DNA of 33,327 bases from Candidatus Cloacimonadota bacterium (lineage in GTDB: Bacteria > Cloacimonadota > Cloacimonadia > Cloacimonadales > Cloacimonadaceae): the NCBI GenBank assembly GCA_029565535.1, contig JAKQNZ010000096.1, positions 1-33,327 of the forward strand, in the 5' to 3' direction. Shown here in pieces: positions 23,956 through 28,417 of this stretch. A program made the translations under genes and the position numbers. How positions within the stretch are numbered: the first letter of the stretch is position 1; the number at the start of each line of letters is the position of its first letter. The notes under the pieces are model-generated. The model saw only the letters and a list, made by a program, of their open reading frames with translations, did no database searches and was not told where the DNA came from.

Positions 23956-26508
23956 TTACCTCATTGTTATCTGCCATTTGTCTTGCAGGGTTTTTATAAC
24001 TAATTCAACAAGTTGATCCACTCGTTCATCTGTCAATGTTTTTTCTTTGTCCTGAATTTTTAAATGCAGGGACAAGCTTCTATATCCGCTGGGAACCTGT
24101 TTTCCGCGGTATTCGTCGAAGGGGCTAAGCTCGCAGATCAGGTCCGGATTCAAAGATAGTATCTCCTGGTGAATATCCTGCCAGCCAATTGAGTCGGCGA
24201 TTAGGAAAGAAATATCGCGGACAACTGAGGGAAAGCGTGAAAGCTCATTAAAGACCCGTTGCAAATGGCGTGTGGCTTCGATGATATCTTCCAGATGCAT
24301 CTCCAATATCCAGATGTCCTGCTTCAGTTCCAGGGTATCAATTCCAAATGTCTGTGCAATATCTGCTCTCAGCTTGCCATAATAAGCTAATTGCTTTCCT
24401 TGAAACAGGTATTGGCTTGATTCAGCGGTTTGCAGGAATGGCTCGCTGGCTGGTTGGCAGGTGTATTCCCGCAAACCGAGCAGATCCAGCAATTCCTCCA
24501 CTACGCCTTTGGGATATGATGCGTTTATCATGGCTGCTTTGTGTTGCCAATGCTCATTTTGGATTCTTCCACAGAGTGCAGCAGCCAAGTGATAGGGTTC
24601 ATAGCTCAGGCCTTCAGCTTTGTGATAAGTTTTACCCAGTTCGAAGAGCTTGATGTTTTTTTCACCGTGATTCAGATTGTAAACCAGGTTTTGCAGAAGC
24701 TGGGGAACCAGCGAAGTGCGCATCGCGCTCTGATTGCTGCTTTGGGGGTTCTTCAATCTTAGCATATCCAGCTTGGGATCCTTTTCCGCATATCCCAGCT
24801 TCAGCATCAGGGCTGAATCGGAAAAGCTGTAGTTCAGAGTTTCAAAAAATCCCCTGGATACAATGTATTCCGCAGCAACTTTCTTTATCCTGTAGGCATG
24901 ACGATCCATCACCTGACGGGGAATTGTCTTCACTGGTACCTTGTCGTATCCATCCAATCTGGCAAGCTCTTCGATCAGGTCTATTTCACGCTCCAGGTCT
25001 ATTCTGTAGGGTGGGATTTCATAATATTGAGTGTGAACGCAATCCGGTAACTCGGTGAACTCCGTCTTACCCTGTTTCATTTCCTCGGCGTGATGGCAGT
25101 AAAGCTTGGCAACATCTGTAATCTTTCCGGGAATCCAGCATCCATATTGGATAAACTTCAAGCCCAGTTTTTTCAGATAGTCCATTATAGCATTGTCGTT
25201 CAGTTCATATCCGATCACCTGTTTGTATCTGCTGGGACGAATGCCAAGAACCTGGGGCTGGGACGGATTTGGCCAATTGTCATGTACTTTGGGGCAGAGC
25301 TTGCCATTTGCCAGTTCACTGATCAATTTGGCGGCGCGCAAAGAAGCTGCGTCTGTGGCATGATCGCTTAGGTGCCGCTCGAAACGGTACGATGAGTCGG
25401 TGCTAAGCTTTAGCTTGTAAGATGTTCTGCGAATCGAGCCAGGATGAAAGGCTGCGCTTTCCAATACTACCATGCAAGTTTCGGGATTTATGCCGGATTG
25501 CTCAGAGCCCATTACACCAGCCAACGCAGAGGGACTTTCTCCATCTCCGATTACCAGGTCTTCGCTGTCAAGAGTGTAGGTCTTACCGTCTAAAGCCGTG
25601 AAAGTTTCATTGTCTTCAGCTCGGCGAACTACGATAGCAGGGACCGTATCTCCAGGTAGGCTGCGAAGTCTTGCATAGTCAAAAGCATGCAGGGGATGAC
25701 CATATTCCAGCATCACAAAGTTCGTGATGTCCACCAGATTGCTGATCGGCCTGAGTCCGGATTTGATCAGAGCGGTTTTCATCCAAAGCGGAGATTGTCC
25801 TGTTTGCACATCGACAAAGAGTCTGGCAGTATAGCGGGGGCACTTTTCAGTGTCATTGATCACCAGCTTTAAAGCCAAGTCTTGTTTTGCGAAATACTCG
25901 TCCTCAATTTTGGTGTCGGGCATGATAAGTGGACGGGATAACTTTGCGGAAAGGTCTCTGGCGATGCCAAGATAACCCAGCAGATCTGGCCGGTTTGGAG
26001 TGATCTCAAGTTCAAAGATTGTATCCGGCAAATCATATAGGTCATTTACGCTGATTCCGATTGCAGTTTCGTAGGGAAGCTCGATGATTCCGGCATGATT
26101 GTCGGAAATGCCCAATTCCTTTTCCGAGCAGAGCATTCCGTGCGATTCCACACCTCTTATCTTAGCCTTGCCGATTGTATAACCCGGCAATTCACTTCCC
26201 GGCAGGGCGATGATGGCCATCATTCCAGCATGGCAATTGGGAGCACCACAGATCACTTGCACATAGCCTGCTTCGTTTTTTTCGGGATAATCATATTCGC
26301 CGATATCCACCAGGCATTGCTGCAAATGGTCAGTTTTGGGAACTGCCACGGCAGAAACCACTTTGGCGCTTATCACGCTTTTGGGCAGAGCAGGAAGCTC
26401 TTTTACAGCTTCCACTTCGATGCCGGCAAAGGTTAGCAGTTTTTCCAGTTCGGCAGTGCTTTCACCAAGCTCGATGTACTTCTTCAGCCAGTTCAAAGAG
26501 ATAATCAT
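23956..26508 (-). CDS. pheT: Phenylalanyl-tRNA synthetase beta subunit
   Basis: 850 aa; MIISLNWLKKYIEL, N-terminal tRNA-binding domain, B3/B4, B5, core and FDX-ACB domains; overlaps the pheS stop. Confidence 0.97.
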   Translation of the reverse strand: MIISLNWLKKYIELGESTAELEKLLTFAGIEVEAVKELPALPKSVISAKVVSAVAVPKTDHLQQCLVDIGEYDYPEKNEAGYVQVICGAPNCHAGMMAIIALPGSELPGYTIGKAKIRGVESHGMLCSEKELGISDNHAGIIELPYETAIGISVNDLYDLPDTIFELEITPNRPDLLGYLGIARDLSAKLSRPLIMPDTKIEDEYFAKQDLALKLVINDTEKCPRYTARLFVDVQTGQSPLWMKTALIKSGLRPISNLVDITNFVMLEYGHPLHAFDYARLRSLPGDTVPAIVVRRAEDNETFTALDGKTYTLDSEDLVIGDGESPSALAGVMGSEQSGINPETCMVVLESAAFHPGSIRRTSYKLKLSTDSSYRFERHLSDHATDAASLRAAKLISELANGKLCPKVHDNWPNPSQPQVLGIRPSRYKQVIGYELNDNAIMDYLKKLGLKFIQYGCWIPGKITDVAKLYCHHAEEMKQGKTEFTELPDCVHTQYYEIPPYRIDLEREIDLIEELARLDGYDKVPVKTIPRQVMDRHAYRIKKVAAEYIVSRGFFETLNYSFSDSALMLKLGYAEKDPKLDMLRLKNPQSSNQSAMRTSLVPQLLQNLVYNLNHGEKNIKLFELGKTYHKAEGLSYEPYHLAAALCGRIQNEHWQHKAAMINASYPKGVVEELLDLLGLREYTCQPASEPFLQTAESSQYLFQGKQLAYYGKLRADIAQTFGIDTLELKQDIWILEMHLEDIIEATRHLQRVFNELSRFPSVVRDISFLIADSIGWQDIHQEILSLNPDLICELSPFDEYRGKQVPSGYRSLSLHLKIQDKEKTLTDERVDQLVELVIKTLQDKWQITMR

Positions 26509-27539
26509 CTTAGCTCTCCTTTGAATTGACGCAGCATCTTAAGATCGTTCTCAAAAAGGATCCGCATATCCGGAATATTGTATTTCAGCATGGCAATCCT
26601 TTCGATTCCCAGGCCAAAGGCAAAACCGGTATAAAGCTCAGAATCGATTCCCAAAATGTCAAACACATTGGGGTCTACCATTCCAGCTCCGCCCATTTCC
26701 AGCCAACCTGAGTTTTTGCATACCCGGCAACCTGAACCTCCACAAACCACGCAGGATATGTCCATCTCCGCGCTGGGTTCGGTGAAGGGGAAGAAATGGG
26801 GACGAATCCTGCTGCCAACTTTCTTGCCAAACATGATGGAGGCGAATTGTTGAAGGGTATCGGTCAGGTCTCCAAGGCTGATACCTTTATCTACTACCAG
26901 GGCTTCCACCTGATGGAAAACCGGGGAGTGGGAAGGGTCGGGCTTGTCGTTTCGATAACAGCGCCCAGGTGAGATTATCCTGATCGGCGGGGCATAGCGT
27001 TCCATGGTGCGGATTTGAACTGTGGAGGTTTGAGTTCTCAGCAAGCCGCCATTTTCCAGATAAAAGGTATCCGCCAGATTGCGGGAAGGATGATCGGCAG
27101 GGGTATTCAGGGCATCGAAATTGTGAAAATCATCATCGATATCAGGCCCTTCAGCTATTTCAAAACCCATGCTCAAAAACACTTCATCGATCTCTCTGCG
27201 AACTATGGTCAGCGGATGAAAACCACCGCGTGAGCTTTCGATTCCAGGCATGCTGAGATCGTAGGAACTCGCATTGGAATTATTCATCCAGGCCTGTTCC
27301 TTCACCTGCTTGCTTCTGATCTCCAGCAGAGCTTCAATCTGCGTCCGGCTTTGGTTTATCATATTTCCGAAAGCGGGACGCTCTTCCGGGCTAAGCTCCT
27401 TCATCCGGGCAAAAAGACCGTTCAAAACGCTCTTTTTCCCCAGATATTGAGCCTTTGCGTTCATCAGGTCATTTGCCGTAACACAGGCTTGAATGTCGGT
27501 TTCAGCCTGCTTTACCAATTCCTTCAGCTGTTCTTGCAA
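26505..27539 (-). CDS. pheS: Phenylalanyl-tRNA synthetase alpha subunit
   Basis: 344 aa; GRCYRNDKPDPSHSPVFHQVE, CVVCGGSGCRVCKNSGWLEMGGAGMV, GFAFGLGIERIAML. Confidence 0.97.
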   Translation of the reverse strand: MQEQLKELVKQAETDIQACVTANDLMNAKAQYLGKKSVLNGLFARMKELSPEERPAFGNMINQSRTQIEALLEIRSKQVKEQAWMNNSNASSYDLSMPGIESSRGGFHPLTIVRREIDEVFLSMGFEIAEGPDIDDDFHNFDALNTPADHPSRNLADTFYLENGGLLRTQTSTVQIRTMERYAPPIRIISPGRCYRNDKPDPSHSPVFHQVEALVVDKGISLGDLTDTLQQFASIMFGKKVGSRIRPHFFPFTEPSAEMDISCVVCGGSGCRVCKNSGWLEMGGAGMVDPNVFDILGIDSELYTGFAFGLGIERIAMLKYNIPDMRILFENDLKMLRQFKGELR

Positions 27540-27569
27540 CGTTTCCTCGATTAGATAAATAACTCGGAT

Positions 27570-27591
27570 TTACACGGATTACGCGGATTTT
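27570..27591. repeat. Left terminal inverted repeat of the GxxExxY element
   Basis: TTACACGGATTACGCGGATTTT; reverse complement matches 28044-28066 except for one extra base there. Confidence 0.85.
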
Positions 27592-27977
27592 CGCAGATTT
27601 CTTACCTTAAGTATCTTCCGTTTGATCTCGGCTTGGGGACCATAATTCAGGATCAGCCCCAGTTCCGTTTCCGTAGATTTTTTATTATGTAGTAGTTGAG
27701 CTTCATGTTCCGGCAGAATTCGGGCAGCAGTTTTCAGCTCAATAATATGTTTATCTTCCACCCTCAGATCGGCATAATACTTGCCGATAATGGTGTTTTC
27801 GTAATGGACTTCAATAGGCTTCTGGGATTCTACTTTCAAGCCAAGTTTATTCAGCTCATAGATCAGGGCGTTTAGATACACTTTCTCCAGATGACCGTAT
27901 CCCAAAGCGTTGTAAGTTTTGTAGAACATACCGATCTCTTTTTCAGTTAGGTCGTTATCTACTTCTTTACTCAGCAC
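27579..27977 (-). CDS. GxxExxY family protein
   Basis: 132 aa; LGYGHLEKVYLNALIYELNKLGLKVESQKPIEVHYENTIIGKYYADLRVEDKHIIELKT; GxxExxY motif plus nuclease-like D...ELK residues. Confidence 0.9.
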   Translation of the reverse strand: MLSKEVDNDLTEKEIGMFYKTYNALGYGHLEKVYLNALIYELNKLGLKVESQKPIEVHYENTIIGKYYADLRVEDKHIIELKTAARILPEHEAQLLHNKKSTETELGLILNYGPQAEIKRKILKVRNLRKSA

Positions 27978-28043
27978 TTATCTGATCCTTGTCATCATTA
28001 CTCGGTTTATGAGTTCAAAGGATGCGTATGCATAATCACTCAC

Positions 28044-28066
28044 AAAATCCGCGTGAATCCGTGTAA
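28044..28066. repeat. Right terminal inverted repeat of the GxxExxY element
   Basis: AAAATCCGCGTGAATCCGTGTAA; inverted partner of 27570-27591. Confidence 0.85.
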
Positions 28067-28069
28067 TTA

Positions 28070-28417
28070 TTACCCTTTTGCGATCTCGACCAGCTTGGCA
28101 AAAGCCGGAGCATCATGCCAGGCAAGGTGAGCCAAAGTTTTACGGTTGATATCTATATTGGCTTTATGAAGGCCGTTTATAAAGCGGCTGTAGCTCATGT
28201 CGTTCAAGCGGCAGGCAGCGTTGATACGGGTGATCCAAAGGCTGCGGAACTGGCGTTTTTTCAGCTTGCGATGTGCAAAAGCGAAGGCCATGGCGCGTTC
28301 CACGGTTTGGCGTGCTACGCGGTAGGTTTTGCTGCGGCGGCCAAAATAGCCACGGGCTTTCAGCATGTAAGCTTTTCTTCTGCGATGGGCTGCTACGTTA
28401 TTTGTTACTCTTGGCAT
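28070..28417 (-). CDS. rplT: Ribosomal protein bL20
   Basis: 115 aa; MPRVTNNVAAHRRRKAYMLKARGYFGRRSKTYRVARQTVERA. Confidence 0.97.
   Translation of the reverse strand: MPRVTNNVAAHRRRKAYMLKARGYFGRRSKTYRVARQTVERAMAFAFAHRKLKKRQFRSLWITRINAACRLNDMSYSRFINGLHKANIDINRKTLAHLAWHDAPAFAKLVEIAKG

Follow-up and report, generated by a model that had tools for sequence, protein, structure and literature searches.

A single gene of the GxxExxY family lies between rplT and pheS in the window, the whole stretch of 33,327 nt of Candidatus Cloacimonadota DNA that was analysed, and a pair of short inverted repeats brackets it. Genes of this kind have a scattered distribution across many phyla and, to our knowledge, have no known function. 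The locus raises the question of what such a gene and its repeats are doing inside a host operon. An original prediction, made from the sequence alone, took the arrangement for a mobile cassette of about 0.5 kb, and the evidence for and against this is considered here, from the window itself outward to other genomes and phyla.

The rplT-pheS locus

The features concerned, all on the minus strand, are:

28070..28417, minus strand: rplT, ribosomal protein L20 (PF00453), the host gene upstream of the element
28044..28066, minus strand: 5' arm, upstream of the GxxExxY gene, two units of ~10 bp
27579..27977, minus strand: GxxExxY gene (PF13366 / TIGR04256), predicted PD-(D/E)XK nuclease
27561..27599, minus strand: 3' arm, four units with a period of 9-10, including at 27570-27591 an inverted copy of the 5' arm
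26505..27539, minus strand: pheS (PF01409, PF02912), the host gene downstream of the element

Profile matches confirm all three gene assignments. The left repeat, TTACACGGATTACGCGGATTTT (27570-27591), and the right repeat, AAAATCCGCGTGAATCCGTGTAA (28044-28066), are 22 and 23 bp long and inverted, with 22 matching positions and one extra base, as had been described; because of this inserted base the pair escaped an ungapped repeat search. Local alignment of the two flanks scored 39, compared with 25 for the best of 100 dinucleotide shuffles. Both repeats belong to tandem arrays whose period is ~10 bp: the right one has two units (in the sense of the gene, ACACGGATT and CACGCGGATT) and the left one four (27565-27599), with CGGATT at 27565, 27575, and 27584 and CAGATT at 27594. 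The gene does end within the left repeat, its final codons (TCC GCG TAA) lying there and its stop codon thus falling inside the 3' arm.

Read along the coding strand, the rplT stop codon is followed by 3 nt, the 5' arm (28066-28044), 66 nt, the GTG start of the GxxExxY gene with AAGGA upstream of it, 132 codons, the stop in the 3' arm, and then a ribosome-binding-like sequence of pheS (GAGGAAA, 27543-27549), which is outside the element, and the pheS TTG start. The suggestion that the cassette keeps the operon "in frame" does not apply to an element placed between the rplT stop and the pheS ribosome-binding site; the operon simply stays co-directional. At the same junction, genomes G001 and G004 have gene-less inserts with weaker inverted repeats of the CGCAGATT type at their edges (scores 28 and 35, against shuffle 99th percentiles of 24 and 28), and other genomes have shorter spacers.

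The window protein

The 132-aa product scores 106 bits against each of the TIGR04256 and PF13366 profiles, for which the curated cut-offs are 35 and 22. PF13366 is its only Pfam match, and the profile search gave no match to a known transposase. The family-invariant G, E, Y, D, ExK, and Q residues are all kept, including the GxxExxY motif and the catalytic-type residues D70, E80, and K82. An AlphaFold model (pLDDT 88) has a predicted PD-(D/E)XK fold, to which the nearest solved structures are SSO0001 (Cas4-like), LHK-Exo, and the Hjc Holliday junction resolvases; a sequence search against solved structures found no credible relative. The profile scores place the protein clearly within GxxExxY/PDDEXK_3, and its residues and the model point to an intact predicted PD-(D/E)XK nuclease. 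It matched no anti-phage defence family among the PADLOC models, and nothing at the locus came close to any Rfam family threshold. Positions 97-100 read HNKK where the family has NYLK; with the near-invariant Tyr-Leu at 98-99 altered, the window copy may be diverging. It is also the lowest-scoring of the three GxxExxY copies in its genome.

Inverted arrays bracket GxxExxY genes generally

Bracketing was assessed at other loci by comparing the 5' flank of each gene with its inverted 3' flank and scoring the result against dinucleotide shuffles. GxxExxY matches were found in 31 of 50 genomes of the host family, with up to ten per genome, and at 56 of 62 loci the inverted pair scored above the best of 100 shuffles. 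The median score for the two ends of the same locus was 47.5, as against 18 when flanks were crossed between loci, and just one of 250 ordinary ORFs taken as controls from the fetched loci was positive. Outside the family, a scan of a species-level genome collection with one protein of one subfamily as query yielded 80 loci in more than 15 phylum-level groups (as judged from record titles), archaea included; of the 78 that could be tested, 59 were positive, and CACAGAG-like units predominated among them. A wider set from other phyla, again including archaea, had 105 positives among 134 loci (50 shuffles); it adds other subfamilies from 41 scan genomes and overlaps many of the scan loci. The sequences of the arms vary widely between loci, yet the two ends of any one locus agree. 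A cassette bounded by inverted repeats and lying in sense inside operons is thus well supported as a general architecture, and this much of the prediction stands; its mobility is indicated indirectly, by the turnover described below.

The unit follows the protein subfamily

The arms of GxxExxY elements are arrays of 8-10-bp units, and the class of unit differs by protein cluster. The IIGACIEVH group has CAGAG/AAGAG, ISYQIRGA has CGCAGATT, LLYKDECYKIVGA has CACGAATT/CACAAAT, and MIYEKELSDRIIGCAI has CACCGA, while the group of the window protein (LTEKxIGxFYxxYN) has mostly CGGATT/AGGAT-type units. It had been supposed that the 22-mer of the window might flank GxxExxY genes universally; instead, each protein subfamily has a unit of its own.

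Across pairs from different genomes of the host family, protein similarity and arm similarity were correlated (Mantel r 0.54, 0/2000 permutations), and remained so with pairs above 0.6 protein similarity removed (r 0.37, 0/2000 permutations) and for pairs restricted to host family versus other phyla (r 0.27, 0/1000 permutations). A relative of the window protein in a Spirosoma genome, for example, is accompanied by the window's type of unit, ACGCGGATTGAACAGATTGAACGGAT (L308). Arms are dissimilar among unrelated GxxExxY proteins of the same genome (mean similarity 0.17), so the correlation does not stem from host composition. The type of unit tracks the GxxExxY subfamily, also across phyla. Inheritance of whole elements from a common ancestor might explain part of this association.

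Placement and turnover

The median element length is ~520 bp, and the fit into operons is often tight: in 26 of 53 cases no more than 20 nt separate the upstream stop codon from the element, and in 31 of 51 no more than 40 nt separate its end from the following ATG. Where the neighbours are co-directional, the element is in sense at 113 loci and antisense at four.

Several junctions differ between related genomes. One has an element in many species and in L109 only a short stop-to-start gap; no target-site duplication could be read from this single empty site against filled ones, as the intergenic DNA is too diverged. At this same junction, G024 and G023 have flanking proteins with 88% and 95% identity but element proteins with 43%; for G013 and G011 the values are 89% and 89% for the flanks and 55% for the element. 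A further junction has a GxxExxY gene in G041 and G023 and an element with an S23 gene (see below) in G034. Two elements of one genome (L300 and L322 in G062) match at 81% over 446 nt, with flanks that have no similarity. A search for an empty site with G041 DNA against G040 found none, bringing up dispersed S23-type arrays, and no transposition event was seen in the genome comparisons. Overall, these patterns are better explained by insertion and replacement than by inheritance. Plasmid or phage carriage was rejected as an explanation, with 8 of 72,556 plasmid records and two phage records of one virus.

Damaged and multiplied copies also occur. L087 (5717-5964) contains what appears to be an internally deleted GxxExxY element, its N- and C-terminal parts joined and both arms at full length; a complete copy lies beside it. 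Within 42 kb of G001 (C1, 786-828 kb; L074-L076) there are ten GxxExxY matches, some whole and others broken, including near-identical tandem copies.

Arrays without a GxxExxY gene, and S23 elements

The repeat had also been proposed to be tied to GxxExxY genes, with wide occurrence apart from them counting against the idea. Bracketing is indeed general, as described above, but units of the window's class are found at three further sites of its genome where no GxxExxY gene is bracketed, and another class is abundant in genomes free of the gene. Matches to CGCAGATT arrays number 66 in G001 and 42, 41, and 36 in G004, G008, and G031 (the reversed pattern, as a control, gave zero), and no PF13366 gene was found in the latter three, of which G004 and G008 are 99% complete. 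This amounts to a partial refutation. Since the arrays are present in genomes without a detected GxxExxY gene, they can persist, and perhaps spread, without it. They occupy tens of intergenic sites (e.g., L344-L363), often several together in one orientation.

A second kind of gene has the same surroundings. In the 50 family genomes, inverted arrays were found at 28 of 30 loci with S23 genes (PF05635; L134-L163), whose products are four-helix-bundle proteins unrelated in sequence to GxxExxY. Their array units are 7-8 bp and locus-specific (e.g., GGTGTTA, GAGAGGTC, and AGTGATT). Given the gene-less arrays and the S23 genes with arrays of their own, not every array can depend on the nuclease: either several kinds of protein each act on the arrays that fit them, or one driver is common to the arrays.

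Some arrays are elaborate. Three or four classes (CGCAGAT, CGGAT, CACCGA, and AATTCTC) are stacked head to tail in L082 (520-715), and L335 (208-356; G040, C150) has a near-perfect tandem array of the 8-bp GTTAAAAC, S23-type and well over ten units long, which suggests growth by slippage.

A proposed mechanism and its alternatives

The explanation that we consider best, and on balance probable, is a nuclease-repeat element of ~0.5 kb that works like REP/RAYT with a different enzyme and a different repeat, and whose movement would be driven by the protein through its cognate arrays. Support comes from the bracketing, the tandem units, the matching of the two ends, the match of unit to subfamily, the sense bias, the turnover at junctions, and the predicted nuclease fold. 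Such an element would be small and chromosomal, consisting of one nuclease gene and two ends, each an array of 8-10-bp units inverted relative to the other, with a unit proper to each nuclease subfamily. The GxxExxY protein would recognise its cognate arrays and cut or nick the DNA there, and the element, or an array alone, would then be copied or moved into intergenic gaps. Most of the insertions kept would lie between operon genes and run the same way as transcription, where GxxExxY could be read from the host promoter, and gene-less arrays would be non-autonomous copies or remnants. Array binding, cleavage, and movement by the GxxExxY protein are the steps that we infer; we know of no established case of a PD-(D/E)XK protein as sole transposase. 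Confidence in the mechanism is held at this level because the nuclease is not necessary for every array.

The most serious competitor, which we regard as rather unlikely, makes the arrays independent REP-like intergenic repeats spread by other machinery, with GxxExxY and S23 genes either passengers trapped between two copies in opposite orientation or genes for resident proteins whose binding to the repeats serves another purpose, such as repair or regulation. The common architecture of two unrelated proteins would follow naturally, as would the abundance of arrays, single or stacked, in the intergenic DNA of genomes without GxxExxY. Passengers, however, would not be expected to show a unit that changes with the GxxExxY subfamily, across phyla too, nor would unrelated GxxExxY proteins in one genome then be expected to have unrelated arms.

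Two further readings account for the concerted change of both arms at a locus, and both are improbable. The elements might act in RNA, like a 23S rRNA intervening sequence, the arms pairing in the operon transcript so that RNase III would process the stem and cut the gene from the mRNA; the arms are complementary, the elements lie in sense, and S23 proteins are the classic proteins of intervening sequences (PMC4990558). Pairing kept in the transcript would predict an excess of G-U-preserving mismatches over A-C ones, but at 146 loci there were 257 of the G-U type and 258 of the A-C type. There is no visible selection for pairing in the sense RNA, and the arms behave as DNA ends; a stem, moreover, does not need tandem units. 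With G-U mismatches no commoner than A-C, the RNA-stem reading was rejected as quite improbable. Very improbable, too, is a vertically inherited operon gene without mobility, its flanking repeats homogenised by gene conversion, even with one subfamily at the same junction in at least nine species. The divergence of element proteins between conserved flanks, the similar elements at unrelated places of one genome, and the alternation of GxxExxY and S23 at one junction all speak against it.

The proposed nuclease-repeat element looks like a new pairing of repeat and nuclease for which the genomes offer strong evidence of both turnover and specificity; it points to a widespread kind of small mobile element that has apparently not been described before. 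No description linking GxxExxY with inverted repeats was found in the open-access papers searched, and others may exist outside them; neither of the two open-access full texts found to name GxxExxY concerns mobility. With most of them bracketed by arrays matched to the protein, GxxExxY genes become candidates for mobile elements, and their own ends can be named as the substrate. Such elements would account for many of the intergenic short tandem repeats (CACAGAG, CGCAGATT, and CACGAATT types) in uncultured lineages, and their naturally occurring pairs of protein and DNA could allow a recognition code to be worked out. More tentatively, GxxExxY proteins may be the movers of a new minimal class of transposable element shared by bacteria and archaea: a single PD-(D/E)XK nuclease would read a tandem "word" at the inverted ends, word and protein would co-diversify, and the four-helix-bundle S23 proteins would form a parallel second class with the same end design. 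If so, rRNA intervening sequences would be a special case of a much wider type of element.

Comparison with known systems

Inverted ends made of short tandem repeats are also a feature of the Foldback elements of Drosophila, which are unlike GxxExxY elements in being eukaryotic, kilobases long, and of different gene content. Rpn recombination-promoting nucleases are PD-(D/E)XK proteins linked with DNA mobility; their Pfam families differ from that of GxxExxY, and we know of no cognate terminal arrays for them. Insertion sequences and MITEs share with the GxxExxY elements terminal inverted repeats around one gene, and both deleted derivatives (as in L087) and gene-less copies. Unlike insertion sequences, the GxxExxY element has no DDE or HUH transposase and no target-site duplication was seen, and the tandem arrays that form its arms vary from copy to copy.

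The 23S rRNA intervening sequences with S23p (PMC4990558) are likewise small (~0.45 kb), with one small ORF and complementary ends in a transcribed unit, and look like relatives in design of the S23 class. The GxxExxY element differs in its location outside rRNA, its protein, and the lack of any sign of RNA-pairing selection.

The closest analogue is RAYT/REP. RAYT genes invariably have an inverted pair of REPs at their flanks, and further REPs are dispersed elsewhere (PMC2817692), and in RAYT/REP/REPIN systems (PMC2817692; PMC3116915), as here, a small nuclease gene lies between two inverted, family-specific repeats that also occur alone between genes, the unit resembling a transposable element. 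The GxxExxY protein, however, has a predicted PD-(D/E)XK fold in place of the IS200-like tyrosine transposase, with no Transposase_17 (Pfam01797) match, its ends are tandem 8-10-bp arrays rather than GTAG-headed palindromes, and its elements are strongly sense-biased inside operons. The element appears to work like RAYT/REP; because only PF13366 matches and the repeat is not palindromic, it is not a member of that group. An IS200/RAYT-like ORF (identified by eye) with its own inverted repeats is present inside the G001 cluster of GxxExxY copies (L075, 2612-3158), so both systems may share a genome.
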